Below, one piece after another: positions 928 to 15,071 of a DNA stretch of 27,036 nucleotides (its first letter is position 1; every line of letters starts with the position of its first letter). The position numbers were made by a program, and so were the translations under genes. The DNA is from a virus, in IMG/VR virus record IMGVR_UViG_3300027573_000099, positions 1 through 27,036 of that record. One strand, 5' to 3'. The notes under the pieces are model-generated. The model did not search any database. It was given only the letters and a program-made list of their open reading frames with translations, and was not told the DNA's origin.

Positions 928-930
928 GGA

Positions 931-993: not shown

Positions 994-1016
994 GCAACGA
1001 AAAAGGGAGATGCAAA

Positions 1017-1295
1017 GTGTTCGGAAAGAATTCGAAGTTAATAGTTGACGCGTCGCTGCCATGGCAAGCGAAAGTCACAATATTCCCACTGATCTGGTTT
1101 TGCGATGAGGATGGAATCATCGATGCGACGCCAGATGAAATAGCAAAGCAAACCGGCATTCCCATCGAGCACATCGAGGCGGGAATCAAATTATTGGAAC
1201 AAGGTGATCCATCGCGCCCGCCCGCAGATGGCGGTCCGCGCATCGTGCGACTGGCCGAGAATTTTTGGCGTTTGATCGATCATGAAAACTACTGA
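1017..1295 (+). CDS. Small winged-helix-like phage protein of the replication block
   Basis: Translation from GTG at 1017, preceded by GGGAG with about 7 nt spacing, gives 92 residues starting MFGKNSKLIVDASLP. An in-frame TTG at 966 would place the start inside the terminator hairpin, so I reject it. The middle (DGIIDATPDEIAKQTGIPIEHIEAGIKLL) reads like a DnaD/replisome-organiser winged helix. The D.SRP...G.RI..L....W..I.H..Y ending resembles small phage proteins found beside replication genes. It ends 14 nt before the next gene, so they are likely co-transcribed. A precise function cannot be given. Confidence 0.7.
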   Translation: MFGKNSKLIVDASLPWQAKVTIFPLIWFCDEDGIIDATPDEIAKQTGIPIEHIEAGIKLLEQGDPSRPPADGGPRIVRLAENFWRLIDHENY

Positions 1296-1309
1296 CAAGG
1301 GGAATTGCT

Positions 1310-2669: not shown

Positions 2670-2904
2670 GATCTGCATGTGCGGCGCATCGCCGGCGAAG
2701 TTCGACATCAACGAAACCTGTGGCGGCAAGTGGGCATACGGTACGCCGAACTGCTGTGGCGAATGGATGTTCGAGTTTCGGAATCACTACACGACCGATG
2801 CAATCGAACAGCAAAAACTCGCTGGCATTGCATGGAACAATCTTCCGCGTGGATTACACGACGAACTACTTGAAGCACTGCAATCTGATCCGGCAAACAA
2901 CTGA
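2653..2904 (+). CDS. Small cysteine-containing phage protein
   Basis: This 83-residue ORF overlaps the preceding gene by 17 nt. It contains CMCG near residue 9 and a CGG...PNCCGEW pair near 23-37, which could hold a metal, then a helical segment (DAIEQQKLAGIAWNNLP). Another possible start is ATG at 2677, with AGGA close upstream, which would drop the first eight residues. I do not recognise the family. It is followed after 10 nt by the next gene with a good GAGGG site. Confidence 0.6.
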   Translation: MTTTNRICMCGASPAKFDINETCGGKWAYGTPNCCGEWMFEFRNHYTTDAIEQQKLAGIAWNNLPRGLHDELLEALQSDPANN

Positions 2905-2914
2905 GGGCGAATAA

Positions 2915-3487
2915 ATGAAAACGGAACTATGCGGGAAGCACATCGACACGCTGCGCGAGTGGCGCGTGACCTGTGGACTGCCGAAGGATCACGAAGGCTA
3001 CTGCGTGACCATTGCCATTGGTGGCGCAGGCGGAGGCGGTACTGACGGCAGACAGTTCGCAGCGACTGAACAGTTAGTGACAATCGAAGAACGAGTCGCG
3101 TATGTGCCGCTTGTAATCGGCGACGGCGGGAGTACGCCGAAGCGAGACTCCGCGATCACGCCGCGCGAGGCGTTCGAGGCTGGATTCCAAGTCGGCGTCA
3201 ATTGGATCGCGGATAGTTCCGACGAAACATCCAAGTCAAAACGCATCGAACTCTCATGGGAACACTTTCAAGCCGCGCGCATGAAAGCGGCGGCATCGAC
3301 TGAGGAATCGTCATGCGAAGGACGGCGAAGATTAACGCCAGACGAGGCCGAGGCAACTTCACCGAAGCACTCACGAGACTGTGAGTACGTGACAAGTGAC
3401 GGACCTGCACCTTGCACATGCAAGCCAAAATATCCGCCCGGCGCGGACATGAAAGGCGCGACATCGACTGAGGAACCCTGCGGATGA
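2915..3487 (+). CDS. Hypothetical protein carrying the AFEAGF...RMKAA module
   Basis: This 190-residue protein starts with MKTELCGKHI, where C..H and a later C (residue 20) suggest a small metal site. A glycine-rich linker follows, then a module EAFEAGFQVGVNWIA...IELSWEHFQAARMKAA (about 88-126) that recurs almost unchanged in the next gene. The C-terminal part (CEYVTSDGPAPCTCKPKYPPG) has CxC and another cysteine. The function is unknown. The stop overlaps the next start (ATGA). Ribosome binding site is GAGGG. The repeated module suggests duplication and reshuffling between neighbours. Confidence 0.65.
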   Translation: MKTELCGKHIDTLREWRVTCGLPKDHEGYCVTIAIGGAGGGGTDGRQFAATEQLVTIEERVAYVPLVIGDGGSTPKRDSAITPREAFEAGFQVGVNWIADSSDETSKSKRIELSWEHFQAARMKAAASTEESSCEGRRRLTPDEAEATSPKHSRDCEYVTSDGPAPCTCKPKYPPGADMKGATSTEEPCG

Positions 3488-3795
3488 AAAATACTTTCAC
3501 GGTTGGCTATTTCGACTCTGAGAATCGTTGGCACTTCAAGTCGAAATTTTCAAGCAAACAGGAAGCGATGGAACAGGCGCATAAACTCAATGGCGAGTTA
3601 AGCCAGAAAGAAATCGAGCGCCTGACTGCTGAGAACGCGCGACTGCGGGCTGAGCAGCGCGATGCGTTCGAGGCCGGATTCCGCATAGGGAAAAATTACA
3701 TTTTTACAATGACAGAATCGAAAGTCGTAGCCACCATCGAACTCGCATGGGAGCACTTCCAAGCCGAGCGCATGAAAGCGGCAGGTCCCGAATGA
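3484..3795 (+). CDS. Hypothetical coiled-coil protein with the AFEAGF...RMKAA module
   Basis: This 103-residue protein begins in the ATGA overlap with the previous stop. Residues 1-40 form a small unit (FTVGYFDSENRWHFKSKF). Residues about 38-58 (ELSQKEIERLTAENARLRAE) are a predicted coiled coil. The C-terminal part, DAFEAGFRIGKNYIF...IELAWEHFQAERMKAA, is the same module as in the gene just upstream, at protein and DNA level. Function unknown; recent duplication is the simplest explanation. It ends in an ATGA overlap with the next gene. Confidence 0.7.
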   Translation: MKNTFTVGYFDSENRWHFKSKFSSKQEAMEQAHKLNGELSQKEIERLTAENARLRAEQRDAFEAGFRIGKNYIFTMTESKVVATIELAWEHFQAERMKAAGPE

Positions 3796-4612: not shown

Positions 4613-5380
4613 CTAACCTGCCTGCAGTAGGTCTGTTGCAAGCAAGGACTTGGCAGGATCTTCGATCCCAGCATCAGCGAACCCGCGTGATCGCAACAGA
4701 CAAGCGTGGCAGTGACCGCAACCAACCGTTACAGATCCGTCGTCATGGACCGTACCGCGCAACCCGTTGTAGCAAGTGTGCGACAGACCGACGAGTTCCA
4801 TTCCGAATTCGGTATCGCGCGCAAGTCGCACCGTGTCCGCCTTGCTCAAGTAGATGAGCGGCGTTTCGATTACAACATTCTGTAGAGAATCGTCTAGATA
4901 TAGACCGCGATTGAGAGAGGTCTGCATCGCTTCCATGAATGTAGAGCGGCAGTCCGGGTAGCCGCCGAAGTCCTCTTGACTAACGCCGGTCACTAACAAG
5001 AACGGGTCTCCGTCGAAGTGAACGTACCCTCGGCTGGCCGCGATGGCTAGGAACAGAATATTGCGACCGGGGACAAACGTTTTTTCCAGACCGCCCGGAA
5101 GTGTGTCTGCCGATTCGTACAGTTCGACCACTTGCTCCCTGTTTGTCAACGGACTCGTGCCGATCAGAACATCAGGCACCTTCACCAGATCGTGTGGTAT
5201 ACGACGACCTGATAACTGGCTTGCGCGTTCGATGATTGCGACCGCCTGAACCAACTCGATCCGATGCCTTTGGCCGTAGTCGAACGTGACCGCCCGCACA
5301 TTGTCGTAGGTGTGCAGCGCACAAGCCAAACAGGTTGCACTGTCCTGCCCTCCTGAGAGGACAACCATCGCGTTTGTCAT
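4613..5380 (-). CDS. queC: 7-cyano-7-deazaguanine (preQ0) synthase
   Basis: The 255-residue protein has every hallmark of QueC, the ATP-dependent ligase-like enzyme that turns 7-carboxy-7-deazaguanine and ammonia into preQ0. The PP-loop SGGQDS is at residues 9-14, FVPGRN at 102-107, and QEDFGGYPDCR at 135-145. The zinc site is Cys203 plus the CGHCHAC cluster (221, 224, 227). In phages queC usually supports 7-deazaguanine modification of the genome as protection against restriction. Its start overlaps the stop of the ArcS-like gene (ATGA), so the two are coupled. No folE, queD or queE is visible here; the precursor may come from the host or from genes outside the window. Confidence 0.93.
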   Translation of the reverse strand: MTNAMVVLSGGQDSATCLACALHTYDNVRAVTFDYGQRHRIELVQAVAIIERASQLSGRRIPHDLVKVPDVLIGTSPLTNREQVVELYESADTLPGGLEKTFVPGRNILFLAIAASRGYVHFDGDPFLLVTGVSQEDFGGYPDCRSTFMEAMQTSLNRGLYLDDSLQNVVIETPLIYLSKADTVRLARDTEFGMELVGLSHTCYNGLRGTVHDDGSVTVGCGHCHACLLRSRGFADAGIEDPAKSLLATDLLQAG

Positions 5381-6546: not shown

Positions 6547-6586
6547 ACATGTCGTCGCACGACTCAACGTTGACGCGGCCCACAAT

Positions 6587-6623
6587 TCGTTGCCTGTGAA
6601 ACATTACTCGTTGCCTATGAAAC
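6587..6623. promoter_or_regulatory. Candidate operator: TCGTTGCCT(G/A)TGAAAC direct repeat
   Basis: Two 16-bp copies differing at one base lie at 6587-6602 and 6608-6623, 21 bp apart (two helical turns), directly upstream of the -35 of the rightward promoter at 6627. This is a typical arrangement for an activator or repressor that controls the small-gene block. Confidence 0.5.
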
Positions 6624-6626
6624 CTT

Positions 6627-6655
6627 TTGGTGACACGGAGACGGCGCCGTATAAT
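6627..6655 (+). promoter_or_regulatory. Rightward promoter for the small-gene block
   Basis: A perfect TATAAT (6650-6655) is preceded at 17 bp by TTGGTG (6627-6632). It is the only clear promoter before the long run of small genes starting at 7071. The weak -35 next to paired direct repeats suggests regulation by a bound factor. Confidence 0.55.
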
Positions 6656-6699
6656 GACGACGTGACAACGTATCCCACAAACGATGAACGACGCACGAA

Positions 6700-6972
6700 G
6701 TGCCCCGACGTGAGTCACGGCACGCGTACATCATCGACCCATGCGCACGCGACGACGACGGTCCTCAGCCGAAACGAATCGCGCACGCGCATGGCGACCC
6801 GGGGTTTCAACGTTGTCCGTCTGATGGGAGACGAACAGGAAGTCCCATCGTCCGCCGGTCCGCATAGTGGGGTCGGGCTACACGAAGTTTCAGAGGTTCG
6901 TGTAGCAACCGTTTAGTCGGTCGGTCGGCGCCAGCCGACGCGAGAACCGAAACGGGGAGGGGAATTAACCCC
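6700..6972 (+). ncRNA. Candidate structured leader or non-coding RNA with six hairpins
   Basis: Six perfect inverted repeats follow one another: GTGCC plus GAC (6700-6709) with GTC and GGCAC (6714-6723); CCATGCGC (6739-6746) with GCGCATGG (6787-6794), plus inner CGCGA/TCGCG; GATGGGA (6823-6829) with TCCCATC (6843-6849); CTACACGAA (6878-6886) with TTCGTGTAG (6897-6905); GTCGGC (6924-6929) with GCCGAC (6934-6939); GGGG (6959-6962) with CCCC (6969-6972). They lie between the promoter at 6627 and the first gene at 7071. A 108-codon frame is open over most of it but has no ribosome binding site or recognisable protein. It could be a regulatory leader or a separate RNA. Confidence 0.5.
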
Positions 6973-7013
6973 AAGCATTTTCTCAAACCCGCTCACCAGT
7001 TTTGGATTTCATT

Positions 7014-7047
7014 ATGAGCCGTTCGCGACGACGCGAGTGGCACTCAT
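7014..7047 (+). repeat. Intercistronic two-stem hairpin, divergent first copy
   Basis: Outer arms ATGAG (7014-7018) and CTCAT (7043-7047), inner CGCG/CGCG around ACGA. The AACTGAGGA ribosome binding motif follows before the ATG at 7071, as in the later copies. Confidence 0.5.
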
Positions 7048-7070
7048 GCAATTCAAACTGAGGAACGACA

Positions 7071-7259
7071 ATGAACGCAGTAGCAATCGAAGCAAAGAAA
7101 AATCTGTTACGGATTCTTTGCGATGCACCAAACGACGCAGAAGTTTTAATCACGCGGAGTTTGAAAAACTTTACCGAAGTTTGCGTTTTCAAAGGCGCGT
7201 GTCTGTATGCGAAGTTTCGCGTCAGTAAGAGAACAGGTACGGTCGTCAGGCAGATTTAA
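7071..7259 (+). CDS. Small hypothetical protein, first of the hairpin-spaced array
   Basis: This 62-residue protein (MNAVAIEAKKNLLRILCDAP...) has a helical N-terminus and a basic, beta-like second half (VCVFKGACLYAKFRVSKRTG). The start is fixed by AACTGAGGAACGACA just upstream, the motif shared by the whole array. An overlapping frame from 7037 is its shadow. Family not recognised. Confidence 0.7.
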   Translation: MNAVAIEAKKNLLRILCDAPNDAEVLITRSLKNFTEVCVFKGACLYAKFRVSKRTGTVVRQI

Positions 7260-7264
7260 ACCGA

Positions 7265-7317
7265 GTGGATTTTCCAAACGCATTGCTTAGGCAATGCGTT
7301 TGCTGATTTTCATTCAC
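7265..7317 (+). repeat. Intercistronic two-stem hairpin
   Basis: Outer arms GTGGAT (7265-7270) and ATTCAC (7312-7317), one G-U pair. Inner perfect 11-bp stem AAACGCATTGC (7276-7286) with GCAATGCGTTT (7291-7301), loop TTAG. The AACTGAGGA motif follows. Confidence 0.75.
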
Positions 7318-7338
7318 CATCAACTGAGGAAACACAAA

Positions 7339-7563
7339 ATGGAAAATCAATTCGAAGTATCGCATGGAATTTGGTGCCGCGTATCGGGCGGCGTCACCGG
7401 CACTCGCGAAGCATGGCTTCGTGAGGCTGGCAAGCAATGGGTCGGCACGCACGAGCAAGCCGAACAATACGCGAACAAGTTGCACACCGCAGCACAAAAA
7501 CGCGACGGCCTCACATCGTACAGTTACAAAGCACGAGCACTTTCCGAGCGCAGTTACTACTGA
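7339..7563 (+). CDS. Small hypothetical protein
   Basis: Start at 7339 (MENQFEVSHGIWCRV) is chosen because CAACTGAGGAAACACAAA directly precedes it; the frame remains open to 7294, inside the hairpin. The 74 residues have a tryptophan-rich start and then a helical stretch (HEQAEQYANKLHTAAQKR) followed by SYSYKAR. It looks like a compact alpha/beta fold that I cannot name. Confidence 0.7.
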   Translation: MENQFEVSHGIWCRVSGGVTGTREAWLREAGKQWVGTHEQAEQYANKLHTAAQKRDGLTSYSYKARALSERSYY

Positions 7564-7569
7564 ACAAAA

Positions 7570-7616
7570 GTGAATAACTCGGGAGCATTCGCAAGAATGC
7601 TCCCTCTGATATTCAC
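7570..7616 (+). repeat. Intercistronic two-stem hairpin, GTGAATA class
   Basis: Outer arms GTGAATA (7570-7576) and TATTCAC (7610-7616). Inner stem GGGAGCATTC (7581-7590) with GAATGCTCCC (7595-7604) and a GCAA tetraloop. Seven bases after the preceding stop; CAACTGAGGA follows. Confidence 0.85.
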
Positions 7617-7634
7617 CAACTGAGGAACGACAAA

Positions 7635-7868
7635 ATGAATACCAAAGAAGCAAAAGAAATCGCGAAAGAGTTTCCGAAAATCGAACTCTGGTGGGATCGG
7701 CACATCAAGTTGTGGACGATCACGCCCGCGAAAGGTTACGACGGCCCAGCGGATTACATTCCTTCGGGATGGTTTCCTGACATGACCGACGACGAGTTGC
7801 GCGCGAACTTCGCATACAACTCGGACAACTACGAAGCATGGTCGTCAAAAGCGACCGCATACCGCTAG
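7635..7868 (+). CDS. Small hypothetical protein
   Basis: This 77-residue acidic protein (MNTKEAKEIAKEFPKIELWWD) has a helical start, an aromatic core (KLWTITPAKGYDGPADYIPSG) and MTDDELRANFAY. The start is set by the array motif. It ends in TAG. No known family recognised. Confidence 0.7.
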   Translation: MNTKEAKEIAKEFPKIELWWDRHIKLWTITPAKGYDGPADYIPSGWFPDMTDDELRANFAYNSDNYEAWSSKATAYR

Positions 7869-7871
7869 AAA

Positions 7872-7917
7872 GTGAAAGCCTCAAGCCCGTTCGATGAGCG
7901 GGCTTTTTGATTTTCAC
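7872..7917 (+). repeat. Intercistronic two-stem hairpin, GTGAAA variant
   Basis: Outer arms GTGAAA (7872-7877) and TTTTCAC (7911-7917): the outer stem has changed on both sides relative to GTGAATA/TATTCAC. Inner AAGCCCG/CGGGCTT with a TTCGATGAG-type cap. CAACTGAGGA follows. Confidence 0.85.
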
Positions 7918-7938
7918 CAATCAACTGAGGATACAAAC

Positions 7939-8166
7939 ATGGCACACGCATTCAACATCGACACCGCACCGTCTGCACAAGTTCAAGCAATGATGATGCT
8001 CGAAAAGGTGCTTGACGTTTCAAGCAACTGGCAAACGGGCAGCGATCACGACGAAGCATGGAACGCGCATACGAACAAGGCGGGCGAGCATTGGTACATC
8101 GTCGTCGATTCAGACGGCAGCATCGATCATGTACGCAACCACGAAGCAGGCGAGTCGACTTGGTAG
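7939..8166 (+). CDS. Small hypothetical protein
   Basis: Start at 7939 (MAHAFNIDTAPSAQVQAMM) follows AACTGAGGATACAAAC; the frame is open to 7894 inside the hairpin. The 75 residues have a helical N-terminal half and a WYIVVDSDGSIDHV strand-turn-strand near the end. It ends in TAG. Family unknown. Confidence 0.7.
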   Translation: MAHAFNIDTAPSAQVQAMMMLEKVLDVSSNWQTGSDHDEAWNAHTNKAGEHWYIVVDSDGSIDHVRNHEAGESTW

Positions 8167-8174
8167 CAGCAAAC

Positions 8175-8216
8175 TGAACCACCATGTCCGTTCAATCGAG
8201 CGGGCATGTTAGTTCA
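8175..8216 (+). repeat. Intercistronic two-stem hairpin, TGAAC class
   Basis: Outer arms TGAAC (8175-8179) and GTTCA (8212-8216), a CACC/GTTA internal loop, inner ATGTCCG with CGGGCAT (one G-U pair). AACTGAGGA follows. Confidence 0.8.
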
Positions 8217-8246
8217 ATCCGAACTGTATCAACTGAGGAAACAAAC

Positions 8247-8438
8247 ATGTCACGCAAAGACTACATTGAACTCGCCAACGTTATCGCTGGTTGCAAACTG
8301 CCCGGTTACGGCAAGGCTGCCGAAGCAGCGAACGCGACACGACGCACCATTGCGCGCGAACTCGCGAGCATATGCAAACGCGACAACCCGACCTTCGACC
8401 GCGAACGTTTTCTTGACGCTTGCAACATGACGGACTGA
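8247..8438 (+). CDS. Small conserved-type phage protein
   Basis: From ATG 8247, 63 residues: MSRKDYIELANVIAG then TIARELASICKRDNPTFDRERFLDAC. The pattern 'KDY..IA..I......R......LA..C..DNP.FDRERFL.AC' is one I recall from many unrelated phage genomes as a hypothetical protein. Helical throughout, no catalytic motif. The start is set by the array ribosome binding motif; the longer frame from 8184 overlaps the hairpin. Confidence 0.75.
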   Translation: MSRKDYIELANVIAGCKLPGYGKAAEAANATRRTIARELASICKRDNPTFDRERFLDACNMTD

Positions 8439-8443
8439 CACAA

Positions 8444-8485
8444 TGAACCACCAAGCATTCGCGCAAGCGAGTGCTTGTTAGTTCA
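8444..8485 (+). repeat. Intercistronic two-stem hairpin, TGAAC class
   Basis: Outer TGAAC (8444-8448) and GTTCA (8481-8485), CACC/GTTA internal loop, inner AAGCA and TCGC paired with GCGA and TGCTT, GCAA tetraloop. AACTGAGGA follows. Confidence 0.85.
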
Positions 8486-8509
8486 ACCCACATCAACTGA
8501 GGAACGACC

Positions 8510-8617
8510 ATGACCAACGAACTTCTGGAACTACTCGCGCTGTTGGCGAGGCACGACGATCAACTGGCCGCGCAAATTCTCGCGCATGTCAAACACGAAA
8601 CGCCAGCGAGTGAATGA
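8510..8617 (+). CDS. Very small leucine-rich helical protein (35 aa)
   Basis: A 35-codon gene, too short for most gene finders, lies exactly where the array spacing predicts one: hairpin, AACTGAGGAACGACC, then ATG at 8510. The product (MTNELLELLALLARHDDQLAAQ...) is one amphipathic helix with regularly spaced leucines. Its TGA stop forms the first three bases of the next hairpin. Function unknown; a helical interaction peptide is possible. Confidence 0.65.
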   Translation: MTNELLELLALLARHDDQLAAQILAHVKHETPASE

Positions 8618-8655
8618 ACCACCAAGCCCGTGCGATGCGCGGGCTTGTTAGTTCA
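8615..8655 (+). repeat. Intercistronic two-stem hairpin, TGAAC class
   Basis: Outer TGAAC (8615-8619) contains the preceding stop codon and pairs with GTTCA (8651-8655). Inner AAGCCCG/CGGGCTT capped by GCGATGC. Identical to the copy at 9305-9345. Confidence 0.85.
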
Positions 8656-8680
8656 ACGCAAACCAACTGAGGGTTAGAAA

Positions 8681-8896
8681 ATGAAACGCACATTAGGAAC
8701 AATCAATTCTGAAATCCGACAACTGTTTGCTGACAACGATGTGGTTGTGGACGGACCGGGCATCGAAGCATTCGAGAACGCGTGTGAAGATCTCGCGGAA
8801 GTCAATCCAAAAGCGGCAGCGCGCATGAATAAGTTGGCAGACGAATGGGACGTAGCATTCGCCAAGACTGCGCCGCGGTCGTACTGGAACAAGTAA
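8681..8896 (+). CDS. Small acidic hypothetical protein
   Basis: This 71-residue helical protein (MKRTLGTINSEIRQLFADN) has an acidic middle (IEAFENACEDLAEVN) and aromatic end (WDVAFAKTAPRSYWNK). The ribosome binding motif is AACTGAGGGTTAGAAA, the one copy where AGGA is replaced by AGGG. Family unknown. Confidence 0.7.
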   Translation: MKRTLGTINSEIRQLFADNDVVVDGPGIEAFENACEDLAEVNPKAAARMNKLADEWDVAFAKTAPRSYWNK

Positions 8897-8902
8897 CGAA
8901 GC

Positions 8903-8948
8903 GTGAATAACTCGGACGCACTCGTTGAGCGCGTCCTTTGATATTCAC
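8903..8948 (+). repeat. Intercistronic two-stem hairpin, GTGAATA class
   Basis: Outer GTGAATA (8903-8909) and TATTCAC (8942-8948); inner GGACGC/GCGTCC plus CTC/GAG with one A-C mismatch. CAACTGAGGA follows. Confidence 0.85.
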
Positions 8949-8965
8949 CAACTGAGGAACGACCA

Positions 8966-9304
8966 ATGAGCAACATGAGTTACTGCCGGTTTCAAAACAC
9001 GCTGTCCGATCTGCGCGACTGCGCAAACGCATTGCGCGACGGAGCAGGATCACGCAGCGACGAGGCGAAAGAAGTGCTTGATGATCTGACAATGCTGCGC
9101 GCCAAACTCGACAAGATGCGCGACGAAGGCAAGGAAGGAACGCCCGAGTACGAGGAAGTTTTGGAAGACTACGATCATGGTCAGGAAGAATACGACGAAC
9201 TGCTCGACAACGAACTGATGCTTGATGCAGAAGAAACGCGCGCGAAGGACGCGCTGATCGAACTGTGCAAAGAAATCGCCGAAGACTTCGGCGACGAAGA
9301 TTAA
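8966..9304 (+). CDS. Conserved-type acidic phage protein (MSNMSYCRFQNT family)
   Basis: This 112-residue protein starts MSNMSYCRFQNTLSDLRDC, an N-terminus I recall from many phage hypothetical proteins. The remainder is strongly acidic and helical (LDDLTMLRAKLDKMRDEGKE, EEVLEDYDHGQEEYDELLD), probably coiled coil. Its function is not established to my knowledge. The start and spacing follow the array rule. Confidence 0.8.
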   Translation: MSNMSYCRFQNTLSDLRDCANALRDGAGSRSDEAKEVLDDLTMLRAKLDKMRDEGKEGTPEYEEVLEDYDHGQEEYDELLDNELMLDAEETRAKDALIELCKEIAEDFGDED

Positions 9305-9345
9305 TGAACCACCAAGCCCGTGCGATGCGCGGGCTTGTTAGTTCA
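9305..9345 (+). repeat. Intercistronic two-stem hairpin, TGAAC class
   Basis: Outer TGAAC (9305-9309) and GTTCA (9341-9345), directly after the preceding TAA. Same 41 bases as 8615-8655, and the identity continues through ACGCAAACCAACTGAGG. Confidence 0.85.
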
Positions 9346-9369
9346 ACGCAAACCAACTGAGGAACGACA

Positions 9370-9561
9370 ATGTACTACGAAATAAATGTTAGCAAAAACG
9401 GCAAGCACTTTTTCGCGACGCACGAACGGTCACTGACTAACCTGATCAAAACGTCGGCAGCACTTGAGGTATTCAGAAAAGTATTTCCTAGCGAAGAAGG
9501 CTACGACTTGCGCGTGACACGATACGAAACGCACGGCTACGAAGTTGCGTTTACTGAGTGA
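9370..9561 (+). CDS. Small hypothetical protein
   Basis: This 63-residue protein reads MYYEINVSKNGKHFFATHER, a beta-hairpin-like start, then a helix (TNLIKTSAALEVFRKVFPSEEG) and a strand (YDLRVTRYETHGYEVAF): a small alpha/beta fold. Its TGA is inside the outer arm of the next hairpin. Family unknown. Confidence 0.7.
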   Translation: MYYEINVSKNGKHFFATHERSLTNLIKTSAALEVFRKVFPSEEGYDLRVTRYETHGYEVAFTE

Positions 9562-9604
9562 ATGACTCAAGCCCGTTGGCGACAGCGGGCTTTCTGATAT
9601 TCAC
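9558..9604 (+). repeat. Intercistronic two-stem hairpin, GTGAAT class
   Basis: Outer GTGAAT (9558-9563, containing the stop TGA) and ATTCAC (9599-9604); inner AAGCCCG/CGGGCTT. CAACTGAGGA follows. Confidence 0.8.
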
Positions 9605-9621
9605 CAACTGAGGAACTACCA

Positions 9622-9837
9622 ATGAACAAACGCCAACTGTCCGTTGCGAACGACGCCTACTTGGAAATGTTTTGCACCGATATGGAACTCACCGATAGTC
9701 AGCGCGTAGAACTGCGCAGCGTCAAGACGGTGCATCATCTGTGGGACATACGCGACAAGCAGGACGAGGACGACGAGGACGGATACAGCGAAGGTCAATT
9801 CGATTGCTTGATGTGGGCAATAGAAACGACCAAGTGA
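9622..9837 (+). CDS. Small acidic hypothetical protein
   Basis: This 71-residue protein (MNKRQLSVANDAYLEMFCTD) is helical, with a strongly acidic patch (DKQDEDDEDGYSEGQ) and CLMWAIETTK at the end. Its stop is inside the next hairpin's outer arm. No domain recognised. Confidence 0.7.
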   Translation: MNKRQLSVANDAYLEMFCTDMELTDSQRVELRSVKTVHHLWDIRDKQDEDDEDGYSEGQFDCLMWAIETTK

Positions 9838-9879
9838 ATAACTCAAGCGCACGCGAGCCGTGCGCTTTTTGATATTCAC
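9834..9879 (+). repeat. Intercistronic two-stem hairpin, GTGAATA class
   Basis: Outer GTGAATA (9834-9840, containing the TGA stop) and TATTCAC (9873-9879); inner AAGCGCAC/GTGCGCTT with loop GCGAGCC. The inner hairpin is the exact reverse complement of the one at 12835-12880. Confidence 0.85.
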
Positions 9880-9901
9880 CAACCACAACTGAGGAATAGA
9901 A

Positions 9902-10279
9902 ATGACTACAAGCAAAGCAAAGCAAGAGCAAGGCCATCACTACTATGCGGCCACCGTGTTCGGCTGGAAGACCGCGGACACCCGCAAGGAAGCGCTCGAC
10001 GGACTGGTAAGTTCGTTTCGTTCGAGTCTCAAGCCGATGGTGGCGCGCGCGCAGAAGGAAGGTGGGCCGGGCGTTTACATATGGTGCTGCCGCGTTGAAG
10101 CGCCAAGCGACGCATCGTATGAGATAAGTTGGTACGTCCCGCAAGGTGTCGAGGTCAGCGAGGCTGCGGAAGTCTACGTTACCAGCATCACCGCGAAAGG
10201 TCAGGCGTACTTCGACCTGACAGCAGAAGTTGAAAAGCACAACAAACGCAAGACTCGCCAGTCGGCAGTCGGCGAGTAA
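9902..10279 (+). CDS. Hypothetical protein
   Basis: This 125-residue protein (MTTSKAKQEQGHHYYAATVFGWKTADTR) has an alpha/beta pattern: HYYAATVFGW strand, EALDGLVSSFRSSL helix, VYIWCCRVEA strand, YEISWYVPQGVEV strand, and a basic tail (KHNKRKTRQSAVGE). Array-type start. I do not recognise a family. Confidence 0.7.
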   Translation: MTTSKAKQEQGHHYYAATVFGWKTADTRKEALDGLVSSFRSSLKPMVARAQKEGGPGVYIWCCRVEAPSDASYEISWYVPQGVEVSEAAEVYVTSITAKGQAYFDLTAEVEKHNKRKTRQSAVGE

Positions 10280-10321
10280 GAAACCACCAAGCCCGTTCGC
10301 AAGAGCGGGCTTGTTAGTTTC
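10280..10321 (+). repeat. Intercistronic two-stem hairpin, GAAAC variant
   Basis: Outer GAAAC (10280-10284) and GTTTC (10317-10321), both arms changed in step from TGAAC/GTTCA. CACC/GTTA internal loop, inner AAGCCCG/CGGGCTT plus TTC/GAG, GCAA loop. Confidence 0.85.
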
Positions 10322-10340
10322 ACCAACTGAGGAAACGAAA

Positions 10341-10562
10341 ATGAAAACCGAAACGGTCTATGGCTTTGATGGGAACGGATACGGGATCGGCGACCGCGTT
10401 GAATTGCACCCTTGCACAGACCTGTGGATGCGTGGAGCGCGGTACGGCGTAGTGGTGGGCATGTCATTGACTCCGAATGATCGAGTCAAGGTCGAACTCG
10501 ACGCGAGGCCGGGGCAAGTCTTTGCAGGCAGCGCGGACACCTTTCGCGCACTGCAAGAGTGA
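10341..10562 (+). CDS. Small hypothetical protein, possible SH3-like barrel
   Basis: Start at 10341 (MKTETVYGFDGNGYGIGDRVELHP) follows CAACTGAGGAAACGAAA; the longer frame from 10230 runs through the hairpin. The 73 residues have the shape of a small beta barrel: GIGDRVELHP, ARYGVVVGMS, DRVKVELD, then a helix turn. KOW/SH3-like barrels of this shape occur in many phage accessory proteins, but the match is structural guesswork. Confidence 0.7.
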   Translation: MKTETVYGFDGNGYGIGDRVELHPCTDLWMRGARYGVVVGMSLTPNDRVKVELDARPGQVFAGSADTFRALQE

Positions 10563-10604
10563 ATAACTCAGGCGCGTTCGATGAGCGCGCCTTTTGATAT
10601 TCAC
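10559..10604 (+). repeat. Intercistronic two-stem hairpin, GTGAATA class
   Basis: Outer GTGAATA (10559-10565, with stop TGA) and TATTCAC (10598-10604); inner GGCGCG/CGCGCC plus TTC/GAG with loop GAT. All 46 bases are identical to 10827-10872. Confidence 0.85.
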
Positions 10605-10623
10605 CACCAACTGAGGAACGACA

Positions 10624-10830
10624 ATGAGGTTAACCAGAGAACAGCGTGTGTCACTAAAGCGAATCTACGAACGTCCGACCAGCACAGCAGACAGCGTGTA
10701 TCGGATCGACCTGTCACTGCGCGGGTATCGGCGATTCCGTCGCACCGTGCAACCCGGACCGGGCTGCGTCATGGTTCGATGGCAGGGCATGTGGCTCGGC
10801 ATTGAAAAAGACGGTTACGTCCACTCGTGA
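10624..10830 (+). CDS. Small basic hypothetical protein
   Basis: This 68-residue arginine-rich protein (MRLTREQRVSLKRIYERP) has a helical start, then SLRGYRRFRRTVQPG and strands MVRWQGMWLGIEKDGYVHS. The basic character is compatible with nucleic-acid contact, but no motif proves it. A frame from 10581 is a shadow. The array motif sets the start. Confidence 0.7.
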   Translation: MRLTREQRVSLKRIYERPTSTADSVYRIDLSLRGYRRFRRTVQPGPGCVMVRWQGMWLGIEKDGYVHS

Positions 10831-10872
10831 ATAACTCAGGCGCGTTCGATGAGCGCGCCTTTTGATATTCAC
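10827..10872 (+). repeat. Intercistronic two-stem hairpin, GTGAATA class
   Basis: Outer GTGAATA (10827-10833, with stop TGA) and TATTCAC (10866-10872). Perfect copy of 10559-10604 although the genes on either side are unrelated. Confidence 0.85.
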
Positions 10873-10887
10873 AACTGAGGACACCAC

Positions 10888-11094
10888 ATGAAATCCAATC
10901 AGCATTTTATCGTTCGGTTCTGGAACGGTTATAAATGGAGCGTTGTTCAAGACAAGGACTATTTTTGGGAAGCAAGGACTTGGAACTCACGCGCAGCGGC
11001 GCAAGAGTTTGCCGATGTTCACAAGCCGCAATTCGGCGGCAAGGTAAAAGTGTTCGCGCGTTTTAGTTCGCATAAAAAGTGCGAGCATTCGTGA
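10888..11094 (+). CDS. Small basic aromatic hypothetical protein
   Basis: This 68-residue protein (MKSNQHFIVRFWNGYKWSVV) is rich in tryptophan, phenylalanine and tyrosine, with a helix (SRAAAQEFADVH) between beta segments, and KVKVFARFSSHKKCEHS at the end. It resembles small single-domain phage accessory proteins in general; no family recognised. Confidence 0.7.
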   Translation: MKSNQHFIVRFWNGYKWSVVQDKDYFWEARTWNSRAAAQEFADVHKPQFGGKVKVFARFSSHKKCEHS

Positions 11095-11135
11095 TTGACT
11101 GAGGCGCATTCGATGAGTGCGCCTTCTGGCAATCA
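11092..11135 (+). repeat. Intercistronic two-stem hairpin, TGATTG variant
   Basis: Outer TGATTG (11092-11097, containing the stop) and CAATCA (11130-11135), a third outer-arm sequence that still pairs. Inner GGCGCA/TGCGCC plus TTC/GAG. AACTGAGGA follows. Confidence 0.8.
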
Positions 11136-11160
11136 TGCCAAAACAAACTGAGGAAAGAAT

Positions 11161-12261
11161 ATGAATACGAAAACAAAAGGCTTAACGCTGAACGAGTTGG
11201 CGGAAGAAATCACGCGACAGAATGCCGCGAAGTATGACTTCGTTGCCGACACTCGACACCTGACCGTTGAACCCGACAGCAGCAGTCCGACTAATCTCAT
11301 ACTGAAAGCGGGCAGCAGTGAACGGTTCCCGATCAAGCAGCACGCCATTCGACAGATGGGCACGCAACTCGCAATCCCGGCCACGTTCGTTGACCGGCTC
11401 GCAGAGTCGCACCCAGACATGCTGGCATGGAACATAAATCAGTTGTTCCAGCGCGAGCCTGCGACGCGGATGGTTCGTGTGCTGTTTGATAACGTCAGAG
11501 CGTACCTGTCGAACGGTTATCGTCCACTTGATAACTACGACTTCGCCAACGCCACATTGTCGCGACTTCAACAACTGAAAGCAGAAGTGCTGAACTGCGA
11601 CATACTCGAGAACCGCCTGTATATCAAAGCAGTCATTCCGGGCATCGAGAGAATGGTGTCGAAGGTGAAAGGCGCGTACTTCGGCGACGGCGGACACAAT
11701 CTCATCCACTTGTTCAAGCCCGGCACTTGCCTGTCGAATTCCGAAACGGGTCAAGGTTCGGTTGCGGTCGAGACAGGCACTTGGGAGAAGGGTTGCTCGA
11801 ACATGGCAATACGGTCGAGCGGTTCAATGCGCAAGTACCATGTCGGCGGCAAGTTGTCAGAAGGCGACGGCGTGCAGGAACTGTTCTCTGACGCCACCAA
11901 GATCGCAAATGACAAGGCGTTCTGGATGAAAGTGCAGGACCTCGTGACCGCTGGCCTGTCGCTCGAACGGTTCAACGCGTCAGTCGATGAGTTCGAGGCA
12001 GCCATGACAGGCAAACAGATCGAACGCCCGGCAGACGCCATCAAGGCTCTGCCAAACCTGACGGCAACTGAACAGGACGGCATTCTGGCGTCGCTCATTC
12101 AAGGCGGCGACTTGTCACAGTTCGGTATGCAGTGGGCGATAACTCACTACGCGCAGAACGAGCAAGTGAGTTTCGAGCGTCAAGTCCAACTGGAACGTCT
12201 CGGCGGCGACATAATCGAGTTGCCGAAGACCGACTGGACACGCATCGCAGAAGCAGCGTGA
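11161..12261 (+). CDS. DUF932 (TIGR03299-like) phage/plasmid protein
   Basis: At 366 residues this is the one large gene in the array. It matches the DUF932 phage/plasmid protein family: RFPIKQHAIRQMGTQLAIPATF near 55-77, MVRVLFDNVRAYLSNGYRPLDN around 100-122, then a segment with VSKVKGAYFGDGGHNLIHLF and a helical C-terminus. DUF932 proteins are widespread on phages and plasmids; their biochemical role is not settled to my knowledge. The length fits the family. It sits between ordinary array hairpins, so it seems to have been placed into the same gene cassette format. Confidence 0.85.
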   Translation: MNTKTKGLTLNELAEEITRQNAAKYDFVADTRHLTVEPDSSSPTNLILKAGSSERFPIKQHAIRQMGTQLAIPATFVDRLAESHPDMLAWNINQLFQREPATRMVRVLFDNVRAYLSNGYRPLDNYDFANATLSRLQQLKAEVLNCDILENRLYIKAVIPGIERMVSKVKGAYFGDGGHNLIHLFKPGTCLSNSETGQGSVAVETGTWEKGCSNMAIRSSGSMRKYHVGGKLSEGDGVQELFSDATKIANDKAFWMKVQDLVTAGLSLERFNASVDEFEAAMTGKQIERPADAIKALPNLTATEQDGILASLIQGGDLSQFGMQWAITHYAQNEQVSFERQVQLERLGGDIIELPKTDWTRIAEAA

Positions 12262-12271
12262 TGTAACAAAG

Positions 12272-12313
12272 TGAACCACCGTGCCACTTCGCAAGAGGTG
12301 GCACGTTAGTTCA
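12272..12313 (+). repeat. Intercistronic two-stem hairpin, TGAAC class
   Basis: Outer TGAAC (12272-12276) and GTTCA (12309-12313), CACC/GTTA internal loop, inner GTGCCAC/GTGGCAC plus TTC/GAG, GCAA loop. The inner stem is new but still fully paired. Confidence 0.85.
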
Positions 12314-12332
12314 ATCAACTGAGGAAACGACA

Positions 12333-12833
12333 ATGAATGGAAACATACCATTACACCCAAAGCGCGGTCTCGACCCGCACCTGACGTTCTGCCCGCGCTG
12401 CGGCGGCGATGCGAACGACCTCACGATAGGCCACTTGCGCCGCGTCGAACTGATAGACAACTGGGGTAGAAGTTACGATCCGAAGCAGTACGCCTATGCC
12501 AATCGCGGCGAAGGCACGCGACGCGTCATACAGGAACTGGAAAAGGCAAATCGCCGTTTCAGAGATTGGCAGGACGTACCCGAAGGCGAGCGCGTTCCAT
12601 CCAATGGACCGTGCGACAAGTGCGAGGCCGAACTGGTCGAGCACAAGGCACTGGTTGCAGCAGGTGGTATCTATTGGAACTGCAACAGTTGTTCGCAAAG
12701 TGGCGTAATTAAAGCGCAATCAGAATTGGCAAAGGCTGTGCGTCGGCACGCAGGCATTGAGGCACCGGCCCCGGTCGGTGTGCAGTTCGAAACCTGCGAC
12801 GAGCACACGCCGCGACCGATCAGCCTGACCTGA
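12333..12833 (+). CDS. Multi zinc-ribbon hypothetical protein
   Basis: This 166-residue protein has three cysteine pairs: CPRC (about 20-23), CDKC (about 93-96) and CNSC (about 116-119), the spacing expected for zinc ribbons. Between them is a charged helix (RRVIQELEKANRRFRDWQDV). Zinc ribbons of this kind often bind nucleic acid or other proteins; here there is no further clue. Array-type start and downstream hairpin. Similar to widespread phage hypothetical zinc-ribbon proteins, not to an enzyme I can name. Confidence 0.75.
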   Translation: MNGNIPLHPKRGLDPHLTFCPRCGGDANDLTIGHLRRVELIDNWGRSYDPKQYAYANRGEGTRRVIQELEKANRRFRDWQDVPEGERVPSNGPCDKCEAELVEHKALVAAGGIYWNCNSCSQSGVIKAQSELAKAVRRHAGIEAPAPVGVQFETCDEHTPRPISLT

Positions 12834-12834
12834 A

Positions 12835-12880
12835 GTGAATAACTCAAGCGCACGGCTCGCGTGCGCTTTTTGATATTCAC
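12835..12880 (+). repeat. Intercistronic two-stem hairpin, GTGAATA class
   Basis: Outer GTGAATA (12835-12841) and TATTCAC (12874-12880); inner AAGCGCAC/GTGCGCTT with loop GGCTCGC, the reverse complement of the loop at 9834-9879 with unchanged flanks. Confidence 0.85.
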
Positions 12881-12897
12881 CAACTGAGGAAAAGACA

Positions 12898-13095
12898 ATG
12901 ATTGAGCAAAGCGACCGACCACCGATAGTGGACGACAAGCACCTGACCTATCTGGACGGACTGCGTGCATCAGGCATCACCAATATGTTCGGTGCATCGC
13001 CGTACCTAACCAGAGCCTTCAAACTGACATCGCCTCAAGCACGCGAGGTGCTTCTGTATTGGATGCAGTCGTTCGAGAAACGGCACAAGCAGTGA
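12898..13095 (+). CDS. Small conserved-type phage protein (TNMFGA..YL motif)
   Basis: This 65-residue protein has YLDGLRASGITNMFGASPYLTRAF...AREVLLYWMQSF. The pattern 'YLD.LR.SG.TNMFGA.PYL...F.L....A..VL..WM.SF' is one I recall from many phage hypothetical proteins. Helical, no catalytic residues. Function unknown. Confidence 0.8.
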   Translation: MIEQSDRPPIVDDKHLTYLDGLRASGITNMFGASPYLTRAFKLTSPQAREVLLYWMQSFEKRHKQ

Positions 13096-13138
13096 ATAAC
13101 TCAGGCACACGCGCGCGCGTGTGCCTTTTGATATTCAC
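13092..13138 (+). repeat. Intercistronic two-stem hairpin, GTGAATA class
   Basis: Outer GTGAATA (13092-13098, with stop TGA) and TATTCAC (13132-13138). The inner 22 bases form a perfect palindrome starting GGCACACGCG. ACAACTGAGGA follows. Last clear copy of the array. Confidence 0.85.
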
Positions 13139-13157
13139 CACAACTGAGGATTCAGAA

Positions 13158-13481
13158 ATGAAAGTAACACTTACGATAGAAGTTAATTCGCTCATGGACG
13201 CCGCACTGATCGACGAGTTCGTCGTGCGGGAAAAGATGCAAGCCAATGTAACCATGACGACCACGCCGAATGGGCAGCAGTCACGAGGCAAGCGCAAGGC
13301 TCGCGTGATTATATCGCGTTCGCTGTTTTCGCAGATTGCGGCGGTACGCAACGAAGGTCTGTCCCATGACGAAGTAGCAAAGCGGTTCGGTGTATCGCAC
13401 GCAACGGTCGGCCGAATTTTCAATGGCAAGCATGTGCTGCAAAAGAAGGCGGCGAAGGTCGCGGCGGCGAAAAAGAAGTAG
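13158..13481 (+). CDS. Helix-turn-helix DNA-binding protein
   Basis: Start at 13158 (MKVTLTIEVNSLMDAALIDEF) follows CAACTGAGGATTCAGAA; the frame from 13059 overlaps the previous gene. The 107-residue protein has a helix-turn-helix near 65-90 (AVRNEGLSHDEVAKRFGVSH then ATVGRIFNGKHV), of the resolvase/Hin or HTH_23 type, and an alanine/lysine tail that may contact DNA. No recombinase catalytic domain is present. Being last in the hairpin array, it is a candidate regulator of this block. Confidence 0.75.
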   Translation: MKVTLTIEVNSLMDAALIDEFVVREKMQANVTMTTTPNGQQSRGKRKARVIISRSLFSQIAAVRNEGLSHDEVAKRFGVSHATVGRIFNGKHVLQKKAAKVAAAKKK

Positions 13482-13751: not shown

Positions 13752-13763
13752 GGTTCTAACTAC

Positions 13764-13783
13764 GAGCGCCCTGCGGGGCGCTC
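13764..13783 (+). repeat. Simple intercistronic hairpin
   Basis: GAGCGCCC (13764-13771), loop TGCG, GGGCGCTC (13776-13783). It sits in the same position as the array hairpins but lacks their outer stem. No T run follows, so termination is uncertain. Confidence 0.6.
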
Positions 13784-13823
13784 ACTGGTAGGACTTTCCT
13801 GCCGTTTACTGAGGGAGAAAACT

Positions 13824-14168
13824 ATGTACGTTTATATCAAGACCGAGCCGGGAGTGTGGACGGTCGGCTACACCAAGCCAAACGGCGACTGGGACGCGGA
13901 GTCGGATCACAACAGCAGAGAGGTCGCGGCGAGTCGTTGCAACTACCTGAACGGCAATCATGCGGCTGTCGATCCAGACGCGGACGTGATCGGACGAATA
14001 CTCGACACCGATCTCAAGTCGGTGCAACTGCAACTGGAACACGAGCGGATTAAGAACGAACGCTTACGAGAAAAGAATGCGGAACTGCGCGAAGCATTAC
14101 TCGCAATCAAGGACGCGTTCCTGATCGTATCGCGTGAACGCGAGCAGACTGAAGGAGACGCATCATGA
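13824..14168 (+). CDS. Hypothetical coiled-coil protein
   Basis: This 114-residue protein has a beta-rich start (MYVYIKTEPGVWTVGYTKPN) of a type seen in phage hypothetical proteins, and a long coiled coil (VQLQLEHERIKNERLREKNA, continuing to about residue 95). GGGAG precedes the ATG. It overlaps the next gene by ATGA. Function unknown. Confidence 0.7.
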   Translation: MYVYIKTEPGVWTVGYTKPNGDWDAESDHNSREVAASRCNYLNGNHAAVDPDADVIGRILDTDLKSVQLQLEHERIKNERLREKNAELREALLAIKDAFLIVSREREQTEGDAS

Positions 14169-14353
14169 GTGGTGCAGCCTGCACGCATACCTATGAAAAT
14201 TCGTGGTGGGAATATGATGCGCGAGGCATCGCGCTAGCGCGGGTGTGCGAGAACTGCAAGACGGCAACGTTGGCGAAGTATCGCCCGGAAGTATTGACGG
14301 ACGGCGACTACGAATGCGACGAACCGATTGAGCCAGAGGACGAACTGTACTAG
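14165..14353 (+). CDS. Conserved-type small zinc-binding protein (YDARGI...KYRPEVL)
   Basis: This 62-residue protein has CTHTYENSWWEYDARGIALA, then RVCENCKTATLAKYRPEVLT. I recall the combination H....W..YDARGI.L..VC..C......YRPEVL...Y..DE.IEP as a widespread phage and bacterial hypothetical family. The CxxC plus an upstream Cys/His probably bind zinc. Starts in an ATGA overlap with the preceding gene; stop is TAG. Confidence 0.75.
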   Translation: MSGAACTHTYENSWWEYDARGIALARVCENCKTATLAKYRPEVLTDGDYECDEPIEPEDELY

Positions 14354-14362
14354 TGCAACCCT

Positions 14363-14385
14363 GATGCCCGGTGAGAGCGGGCATC
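14363..14385 (+). repeat. Simple intercistronic hairpin
   Basis: GATGCCCG (14363-14370) pairs with CGGGCATC (14378-14385) around a 7-nt loop. ACTGAGGAG follows before the next ATG, echoing the array format. No T run. Confidence 0.6.
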
Positions 14386-14420
14386 GTGGTCAGCATTGAC
14401 CGATACTGAGGAGAAAAGAA

Positions 14421-15071
14421 ATGGACAGGAAGTTGTTACTGAAGATGGCTGGCTCGTTCGTGGCAGTCATGCTGATGGTGTTCGTTACCATCCGCTTGAT
14501 TGATCGGGAGCAAGCGCAGCAGGTGTCGCAACTGGACGCGATTGTCGAAGCGGGATTCAGAACCGACAGTCAAACCAAGCGACAACTGCCGAGCATCGAA
14601 TTGCCGGTTGTAGGCAGGCCGGTGAGTGACTTCCAATTACCCGCAAGCGACCACGCGTACTCGGTCTATTCAGACGACGAGTTGCGTGCTATGTCGGTCA
14701 GCGATCCGGACGCCGCTGTGCTTCTTGCACGGCGCACGGACAACGACGACGCTGCCGAGTTGCTTTACGAACGCGCGGTGGCGTTGAGCGGCAGCCCGGA
14801 CCCATTGTTCGAGTGGCTGTTCAACAGGCACAGCCGCGCGGGCGCGCGCACGGGCGGGGAACTCGAAAGTCTTGAGAGCACAGAAACGGCCTACGAGATC
14901 GCGCTGACGACTTCGAAGATCGTTGACTGGCCGGACGGCGTGCAACGCTATGCCAACGAGTTGCTTGCAGAGGGCGTAGACCTTGCGCCGATCAAGCAGC
15001 GAGCAGACAGGCGCTTTGATCGATTGACACGGGAGCGGCAAGCATTGCTTGGCGAAGGGTGGCAGTCATGA
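14421..15071 (+). CDS. Membrane-anchored hypothetical protein
   Basis: This 216-residue protein has one N-terminal membrane segment (residues about 8-26, KMAGSFVAVMLMVFVTIRLI); the positive N-terminus suggests the rest is periplasmic. The body is helical and repeat-like (DDELRAMSVSDPDAAVLLAR, AAELLYERAVALSGSPDPLF), reminiscent of Sel1/TPR-type repeats, which bind proteins. It overlaps the next, exported, protein by ATGA. Together they may act at the cell envelope, for example in superinfection exclusion. This is inference. Confidence 0.65.
   Translation: MDRKLLLKMAGSFVAVMLMVFVTIRLIDREQAQQVSQLDAIVEAGFRTDSQTKRQLPSIELPVVGRPVSDFQLPASDHAYSVYSDDELRAMSVSDPDAAVLLARRTDNDDAAELLYERAVALSGSPDPLFEWLFNRHSRAGARTGGELESLESTETAYEIALTTSKIVDWPDGVQRYANELLAEGVDLAPIKQRADRRFDRLTRERQALLGEGWQS

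Follow-up and report, generated by a model that had tools for sequence, protein, structure and literature searches.

Hairpins before eighteen consecutive small phage genes form a probable array of RNase III processing sites that includes a T7/T3-type class

The RNase III sites of bacteriophage T7 have long served as a model for substrate choice by this enzyme, one that comes from a single phage group. SAS/ESAS elements were described in cluster K mycobacteriophages and cluster EF Microbacterium phages, where an over-conserved ribosome-binding motif precedes many small genes, in many cases with an inverted repeat upstream (PMC3203893, PMC7302621). The ESAS inverted repeats of the cluster K phages reportedly do not allow RNA base pairing and were interpreted as likely DNA-binding sites (PMC3203893).

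A motif of this sort with an upstream inverted repeat is found in the phage DNA analysed here (“the window”, the whole stretch of 27,036 nucleotides). Between 7,014 and 13,157, each of 18 consecutive small genes is preceded by one RNA hairpin, and in 18/18 gaps the hairpin is followed by AACTGAGG and ATG. This motif, expected 0.7 times by chance over the whole window, was observed at 18 starts, a conservation beyond Shine-Dalgarno pairing as in SAS elements. The initial annotation, which counted at least seventeen gaps where there are eighteen, had described a real design; the leader it considered common to them, AACTGAGGA, is kept at 17 of 18 starts, the exception being AACTGAGGG at 8665. Its estimate that about half of the outer arms contain the stop codon has to be lowered to 7 of 17 gaps, the hairpin beginning 0-10 nt past the stop in the others.

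The array is composed of ten type A hairpins (lower stem GTGAATA/TATTCAC and variants, internal loop ACTC/TTTGA, upper stem of 9-10 bp), six type B hairpins (TGAAC/GTTCA or GAAAC/GTTTC, a 3/3 loop CAC/TTA that reads CAC/UUA in RNA, upper stem of 11 bp) and two variants, hairpins 1 and 2, with two looser members downstream. No Rfam family came near its gathering threshold, and amino-acid leader families appeared only far below it. The small genes of the array mostly lack family matches. The features are listed below, with the predicted RNase III cut, the start of the leader motif, the gene that follows and the E-value from a covariance model of T7/T3 sites where these apply.

6627-6655, + strand: candidate sole promoter of the array, TTGGTG-17-TATAAT, read from sequence, about 360 nt before hairpin 1
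7014-7047, + strand: hairpin 1, variant with 10-bp upper stem, AC bulge and 4-bp lower stem; motif 7056-7063, gene 7071-7259
7263-7315, + strand: hairpin 2, diverged type A (...GCTGATTTTCATTC); motif 7322, gene 7339-7563; weak R1 match, E 0.5
7570-7616, + strand: hairpin 3, type A; predicted cut 7607/7608; motif 7618, gene 7635-7868; E 8.5e-8
7872-7917, + strand: hairpin 4, type A; predicted cut 7908/7909; motif 7923, gene 7939-8166; E 1.2e-8
8175-8216, + strand: hairpin 5, type B; motif 8231, gene 8247-8438
8444-8485, + strand: hairpin 6, type B; motif 8495, gene 8510-8617
8615-8655, + strand: hairpin 7, type B, identical to hairpin 9, arm includes stop codon; motif 8665, gene 8681-8896
8903-8948, + strand: hairpin 8, type A; predicted cut 8939/8940; motif 8950, gene 8966-9304; E 7.9e-4
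9305-9345, + strand: hairpin 9, type B; motif 9355, gene 9370-9561
9558-9604, + strand: hairpin 10, type A, arm includes stop codon; predicted cut 9595/9596; motif 9606, gene 9622-9837; E 5.7e-9
9834-9879, + strand: hairpin 11, type A, arm includes stop codon; predicted cut 9870/9871; motif 9887, gene 9902-10279; E 6.8e-9
10280-10321, + strand: hairpin 12, type B, arms GAAAC/GTTTC; motif 10325, gene 10341-10562
10559-10604, + strand: hairpin 13, type A, arm includes stop codon; predicted cut 10595/10596; motif 10609, gene 10624-10830; E 7.4e-8
10827-10872, + strand: hairpin 14, type A, identical to hairpin 13, arm includes stop codon; predicted cut 10863/10864; motif 10873, gene 10888-11094; E 7.4e-8
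11091-11136, + strand: hairpin 15, type A, arms GTGATTG/CAATCAT, arm includes stop codon; predicted cut 11127/11128; motif 11146; E 3.5e-6
11161-12261, + strand: gene behind hairpin 15, 366 aa, PHROG 1362
12272-12313, + strand: hairpin 16, type B; motif 12317, gene 12333-12833
12835-12880, + strand: hairpin 17, type A; predicted cut 12871/12872; motif 12882, gene 12898-13095; E 1.3e-8
13092-13138, + strand: hairpin 18, type A, arm includes stop codon; predicted cut 13129/13130; motif 13142, gene 13158-13481; E 5.4e-8
13752-13800, + strand: diverged member, rod, upper stem GAGCGCCC/GGGCGCTC; ACTGAGGGAG at 13808, gene 13824-14168
14353-14396, + strand: diverged member, rod, upper stem GATGCCCG/CGGGCATC; ACTGAGGAG at 14405, gene 14421-15071

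The hairpins are conserved through their pairing, as had been proposed, and both stems covary in types A and B. In type A, 98% of cells are paired with double changes at 11 of 17 pairs (shuffled mean 4.3), and in type B 100% with double changes at 8 of 16 (shuffled mean 2.8), figures that rest on fewer events than copies, since some copies are recent duplicates; hairpins 7 and 9, and likewise 13 and 14, are identical, so that not all copies are independent. Read on the + strand, the exceptions to pairing are G·U in 17 instances and A·C in 1, which identifies the + strand transcript as the folding molecule. A recombination linker for gene exchange was also suggested. The hairpins would then be DNA-level linkers by which small gene cassettes are exchanged or duplicated, with an incidental RNA structure, and the identical copies, the small genes mostly without family matches and the different gene content between hairpins in a sister phage would fit such a role. 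The compensatory changes, the G·U exceptions and the strand-specific loop speak against it, however, and the arm sequences are too variable among copies to offer homology or a site-specific target. Since pairing is maintained on the strand that is transcribed, and the element always sits after the stop codon and ahead of the ribosome-binding site, we regard a linker function as exceedingly improbable, even if the array may contribute to gene exchange as a by-product.

The type A hairpins are recognisable as RNase III sites of the T7/T3 type. A covariance model built from the ten “GTGAATA” (type A) hairpins only, with leaders removed, gave as its best five matches in T3 the annotated “RNase III recognition site” features R4.7, R0.5, R0.3, R1.1 and R18.5 (E 2.8e-8 to 0.007); the T3 record annotates ten such sites, and under a simple model the chance of all five falling in them is about 3e-10. 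The best five matches in T7 (E 1.7e-9 to 0.02) lie at the known sites R0.5, R18.5, R1.1, R0.3 and R4.7, and the best in lambda had E 0.11. In reverse, a model from ten T7/T3 sites recovered 10/10 type A hairpins on the + strand only (E 5.7e-9 to 7.9e-4), with no match below E 1.9 in lambda or in G007, a virus record with another array described below. Across 24 sites from three lineages (window, sister phage, T7 and T3), nearly all carry the internal 4/5 loop NCUC/UNUG(A/G), while double changes affect 16 of 17 pairs and 96% of cells pair; the ten type A copies conform to the loop except for one substitution (ACTG in copy 15). Each forms a rod of about 20 bp in total, with an upper stem of about 10 bp, the internal loop and a lower stem. 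They are intercistronic, and the predicted cut would leave a leader of 24-33 nt with the ribosome-binding site; the same cut rule applied to T7 gives 34 nt at R0.3 and 27 nt at R0.5, and a cut at U^GAUUGACC is consistent provided that T7 5900 is the end of the substrate. Of the five T3 leaders that most resemble those of the window, four are found at genes that follow an annotated early RNase III site. When 2.9 million viral contigs were scanned with a pattern, the only matches were in this phage, in seven T7/T3-like phages (at R0.3) and at one place attributable to chance. BLAST with a single hairpin did not detect T7, as expected for a short interrupted match, and exact-pattern scans with type A with GTGAATA arms, type B or the G007 hairpin returned only their own record and chance-level matches.

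GC-rich upper stems could also suggest leaky intrinsic terminators between all genes, which would give graded expression or need a phage antiterminator. Seven type A copies have U-rich tails and score above 0 as terminators if the U's of the stem are counted as tail, so that about seven copies could act as weak terminators as well. Yet a GC stem directly followed by a U tract is found, even on this lenient reading, in only 7 of 18 copies; the other 11 lie at or below approximately zero, including all type B (best 0.4). Moreover, T7 RNase III sites, which have the same form, receive terminator scores of about -30 to -40, terminators are not characterised by a lower stem or a conserved internal loop, and a promoter scan showed no promoter-like excess within the array. 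Termination as the general explanation is thus very unlikely, and the earlier judgement that simple termination is not the best one mostly stands, apart from those seven copies. RNA processing, which the initial annotation had named first among the possible roles, is supported by the match of type A to T7/T3-type sites; the annotation had rightly read an RNA element other than a simple terminator, but had missed that type A is a known one.

The six type B hairpins probably act as RNase III sites too. They lack the T7-type 4/5 loop, and the T7/T3 model gives only partial upper-stem matches; conversely, the type B model did not match a complete site in any of T7, T3 and the sister phage, its best T7 match being the upper stem of R1.1 (E 0.012). 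They are therefore kept out of the T7-group class as likely analogues.

Structure, covariation, transcript strand, position and the two-way match of type A are directly supported, and we consider it very probable, from sequence, that the array is a set of processing sites at which the host RNase III cuts a long transcript into single-gene mRNAs. A long array transcript would start at a single promoter, the candidate with TATAAT at 6650 (a hexamer with 3 occurrences on the + strand of the window), and in each gap the rod would fold once the ribosome has moved off the stop codon. The RNase III of the host would then bind it and, in type A, cut on the 3′ side of the asymmetric 4/5 loop (ACUC opposite UUU^GA). 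The upstream message would end with a stable stem-loop and the downstream one start with 5′-GAUAUUCACCAACUGAGG..., an open leader of 24-33 nt with its ribosome-binding site. Type B and the variants would be processed in the same manner, with presumable effects on message stability and translation. In this way the operon would be resolved into mRNAs of one gene each, with standard termini on the 5′ and 3′ sides. The T7 early region is processed similarly, whereas here the cutting would occur at each gene.

A sister phage (G009; terminase 78% identical) has six type A/T7-like sites in the related gene region, with different gene content between hairpins. ACTGAGGR stands at many of its starts and several of its genes have the ACTGAGG leader without a hairpin, which indicates that processing is not needed at every gene. 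Another virus record, G007 (IMGVR_UViG_3300043707_000134), has seven gaps with a rod hairpin followed by the conserved leader CTCAAACCAAGGAGAC and ATG, several arms containing the stop codon as in the window; its sequence is unrelated, however, and is matched neither by the window models nor by the T7/T3 model. Apart from this different array in G007, relatives of the 366-aa gene (PHROG 1362) have none, so that gene and array are not linked. A custom detector, applied to loci totalling about 0.9 Mb and consisting for the most part of viral contigs hit by chance, reported dispersed arrays only in the window and G007. Weak model matches in two other contigs (G043 and G024) were rejected as sites, since on inspection they resemble a terminator and chance. 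Within the open-licence papers searched, no RNase III site arrays were found outside T7-like phages.

The same internal loop persists in phages that are not related, although almost all of the base pairs around it differ; nature thus provides evidence that the loop belongs to the requirements of the enzyme or of the cut. The array also suggests that a phage can resolve an operon of small genes, step by step, into messages of one gene each, so that the purpose of such processing becomes open to experiment, and other arrays that combine a hairpin with a start motif may be interpreted on the same model. Perhaps, and we put this forward tentatively, with less than even confidence, some siphophages generally build their operons with a processing hairpin at each gene, RNase III sites serving as modular expression cassettes with standard ends; the type B and G007 hairpins would then be further undescribed classes of sites for RNase III or another nuclease, and the NCUC/UNUG(A/G) loop would be an epitope for recognition that unrelated phage groups have retained or evolved anew.

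In a layout similar to that of the SAS/ESAS elements, the array has hairpin and extended ribosome-binding motif always together, and its invariant internal loop is a possible protein site, so that a protein of the phage or the host could be imagined to bind these RNA elements near the starts and control translation without cleavage. Nevertheless, both the loop and the layout match T7/T3 RNase III sites, and the sister phage, in which the leader motif occurs without hairpins, shows the two parts to be separable. Pairing is strongly kept here and the ESAS repeats reportedly do not support it (PMC3203893), which sets these hairpins apart from ESAS and leaves control without cleavage a highly improbable reading. 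The T7 group, to which we return for RNase III processing, differs in having its sites spread over the genome (ten in T3) rather than one at each of 18 consecutive genes, in the loop (UAUGA in T7, UUUGA in the window) and in the upper stems; the window array mixes in a second hairpin class, type B, and its phage carries siphophage terminase, tape measure and tail genes, with no T7-like genes seen. The sites R0.3, R0.5, R1.1, R4.7 and R18.5 of T7 and T3 nonetheless share with type A the upper stem of about 10 bp, the NCUC/UNUG(A/G) loop, the 7-bp lower stem, the intercistronic position before a short leader with a ribosome-binding site and models that match both ways, and T3 R0.3 even has GAATAACTCAAG...TGATATTCAC in common with the type A hairpins of the window.

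Each of the 18 gaps in front of the consecutive small genes carries a hairpin, confirming the array that the initial annotation had placed in the intercistronic gaps. The relevant features of the window are:

4613–5380, minus strand: QueC-like 7-deazaguanine synthesis gene (PHROG 1550), adjoining a 402-aa ORF that matches no PHROG
6586–7013: about 430 nt with no evident gene, from a divergent minus-strand ORF to hairpin 1; possibly a long leader, containing the candidate promoter
6650: TATAAT, candidate promoter upstream of the first hairpin
6878–6905: perfect 9-bp stem, CTACACGAA/TTCGTGTAG, within the 6586–7013 stretch
7,071–13,481: 18 genes in the same direction, 16 of them shorter than 130 codons
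13,752 and 14,353: two further diverged hairpins, downstream of the array

The motif AACTGAGG precedes all 18 array starts (chance expectation over the entire window, 0.7). Relative to the last base of the stop codon, the hairpins begin between 4 nt upstream and 10 nt downstream; they end 15–30 nt before the ATG. The window (27,036 b of a virus record) lies reversed within a longer record (IMGVR_UViG_3300009678_000070, 51,104 b), identical wherever compared, and its genome is siphophage-like, with terminase, major head protein, portal, tape measure, tail proteins and a J-like tail fibre. The QueC-like gene raises the possibility of DNA modification. An 18-base period (AGCGACCCA N9 AGCGAGCCA) runs over long stretches of locus L018 (5617–6351, 7399–7443 and 14443–15818), and on the minus strand it would give a six-residue Gly-Ser-Leu repeat, perhaps of a fibre protein. 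Elsewhere in the same phage (locus L086, minus strand, near position 7720 from the far end) lies a strong ordinary terminator-like hairpin, GCCCGCC...GGCGGGC-TTTTTC, followed by a further AACTGAGG with no ATG nearby.

Two principal kinds of hairpin were distinguished: type A (n = 10), with a 7-bp lower stem, a loop of ACTC against TTTGA and an upper stem of 9–10 bp, and type B (n = 6), with a 5-bp lower stem, CAC against TTA and an 11-bp upper stem. Hairpin 1 is a variant, and hairpin 2 a diverged type A. What is conserved in them is the pairing. It is kept in 98.2% of type A and 100% of type B cells, and the covariation proposed earlier for the stems was borne out by both-side changes in 11 of 17 type A pairs (shuffled mean 4.3) and 8 of 16 type B pairs (shuffled mean 2.8), counts that are not independent events because some copies are recent duplicates. 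Pairing in both types is lost when the partner is slid by one base, and mismatches rise from about 1% to 25% when arms are exchanged between copies. Two pairs of hairpins are identical (8615/9305 and 10559/10827), which suggests recent duplication or gene conversion inside the array. On the plus strand the non-Watson-Crick cells comprise 17 G-U and one A-C; therefore, plus-strand RNA is the folding molecule. The same imbalance rules out a DNA cruciform, and such strand-specific pairing also speaks against DNA linkers as the main explanation of the hairpins.

The region upstream of T7 gene 0.3 (GGATAACTCAAGGG...CCCTTTATGATATTCACTAATAACTG) resembles the window hairpins (GAATAACTCAAGCG...CGCTTTTTGATATTCACCAAC). 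As this resemblance was spotted after the fact, it was tested with a covariance model (R1) trained on the ten type A hairpins only, leaders excluded; run on other phages, as the initial annotation had proposed, R1 matched sites in T7, T3 and a sister phage. Its best five T7 matches, all on the plus strand, were at 1430 (E 1.7e-9), 36819 (2.3e-7), 5850 (8.3e-7), 855 (3.1e-6) and 13856 (0.02), the sixth having E 2.3; we take these five to be the RNase III sites R0.5, R18.5, R1.1, R0.3 and R4.7, respectively. The T7 records carry no RNase III features, and the T3 record annotates ten RNase III recognition sites, five of which were the best R1 matches there (E 2.8e-8 to 0.007). The next match (E 0.41) fell at the annotated putative RNase III site R7 of gh-1, searched together with T3; in lambda the best E was only 0.11. 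Reversing the search, a model from ten T7/T3 sites (R3) recovered every one of the ten hairpins of type A, with E from 5.7e-9 to 7.9e-4 and matches confined to the plus strand; it gave no match below E 1.9 in lambda or in another virus record, G007. The type A hairpins therefore match the T7/T3 sites in both directions, besides having a defined structure, strand and place. Over 24 sites from the window, the sister phage, T7 and T3, 96% of cells pair, double changes occur in 16 of 17 pairs (shuffled, 9.8), and the internal loop is NCUC / UNUG(A/G) with few exceptions; their common signature is free helices around a fixed 4- and 5-base loop. Among 2.9 million viral contigs scanned, the R0.3-form pattern occurred in this phage, at R0.3 of seven T7/T3-like phages, and at one further place attributed to chance, which lacks the GC-rich hairpin. 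Either transfer from T7-like phages or convergence could explain the signature; shared origin is favoured, because the GAATA/TATTC arms are identical in T3 R0.3 and the window. The type B model matched only the upper stem of R1.1 in T7 (E 0.012) and nothing in T3 or the sister phage, and type B is thus termed an analogue rather than a member.

The sister phage (IMGVR_UViG_3300045885_000249, 48,834 b), whose terminase (78% identical) is the closest among relatives with long records, has five R1 matches (E 1.6e-9 to 2.5e-5) and a sixth site found by eye and by R3. The genes that these sites precede lie in a region where several window genes have homologues, and a TATAAT box stands upstream of the first site, as in the window. 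Many of its genes are preceded by an ACTGAGG leader/start motif (14000–30000) and only six by a hairpin; leader and hairpin are thus separable, and hairpins are acquired or dropped irrespective of the motif. No convincing site was found in the other 39 terminase relatives searched, many of those records being fragments.

By analogy with T7, type A hairpins are most likely cut by RNase III. The R1.1 substrate is cut once, giving products of 47 and 13 nt, consistent with U^GAUUGACC provided that the substrate ends at T7 5900. Applied to type A, this rule most likely places the cut at UUU^GA(U), which would leave leaders of 24–33 nt (e.g. GATATTCACCAACTGAGGAACGACAAAATG); the T7 leaders under the same rule are 34 nt (R0.3) and 27 nt (R0.5). 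The upstream message would keep a protective 3′ end, translation may be affected, and type B hairpins may be processed in the same way. Termination is a less likely explanation: no more than 7 of 18 copies pass a terminator score, on a lenient reading, and T7 sites of like form score −30 to −40 as terminators. A weak terminator effect is possible in those seven copies.

Hairpin-plus-start layouts are also found elsewhere. G007 (IMGVR_UViG_3300043707_000134), reached through a distant relative of the window's 366-aa gene, has seven hairpins at 235–3790 (CTGAACCTACC-stem-TTCAGGTGCAG, then CTCAAACCAAGGAGAC-ATG), several with the stop codon in an arm. Three pairs show double changes among five aligned copies, which is weak evidence of covariation, and no model of this analysis matched these hairpins. 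Since the layout is alike while the sequence is unrelated, such arrays seem to have originated more than once. The start-associated SAS/ESAS motifs of mycobacteriophages likewise share the layout of the window array, which could be read as elements of that type; however, the window hairpins keep RNA pairing, whereas ESAS repeats are reported not to support it (PMC3203893). Compared with the T7/T3 sites, the array is a new arrangement of a known element: one site per gene, in siphophages, together with a second hairpin class.
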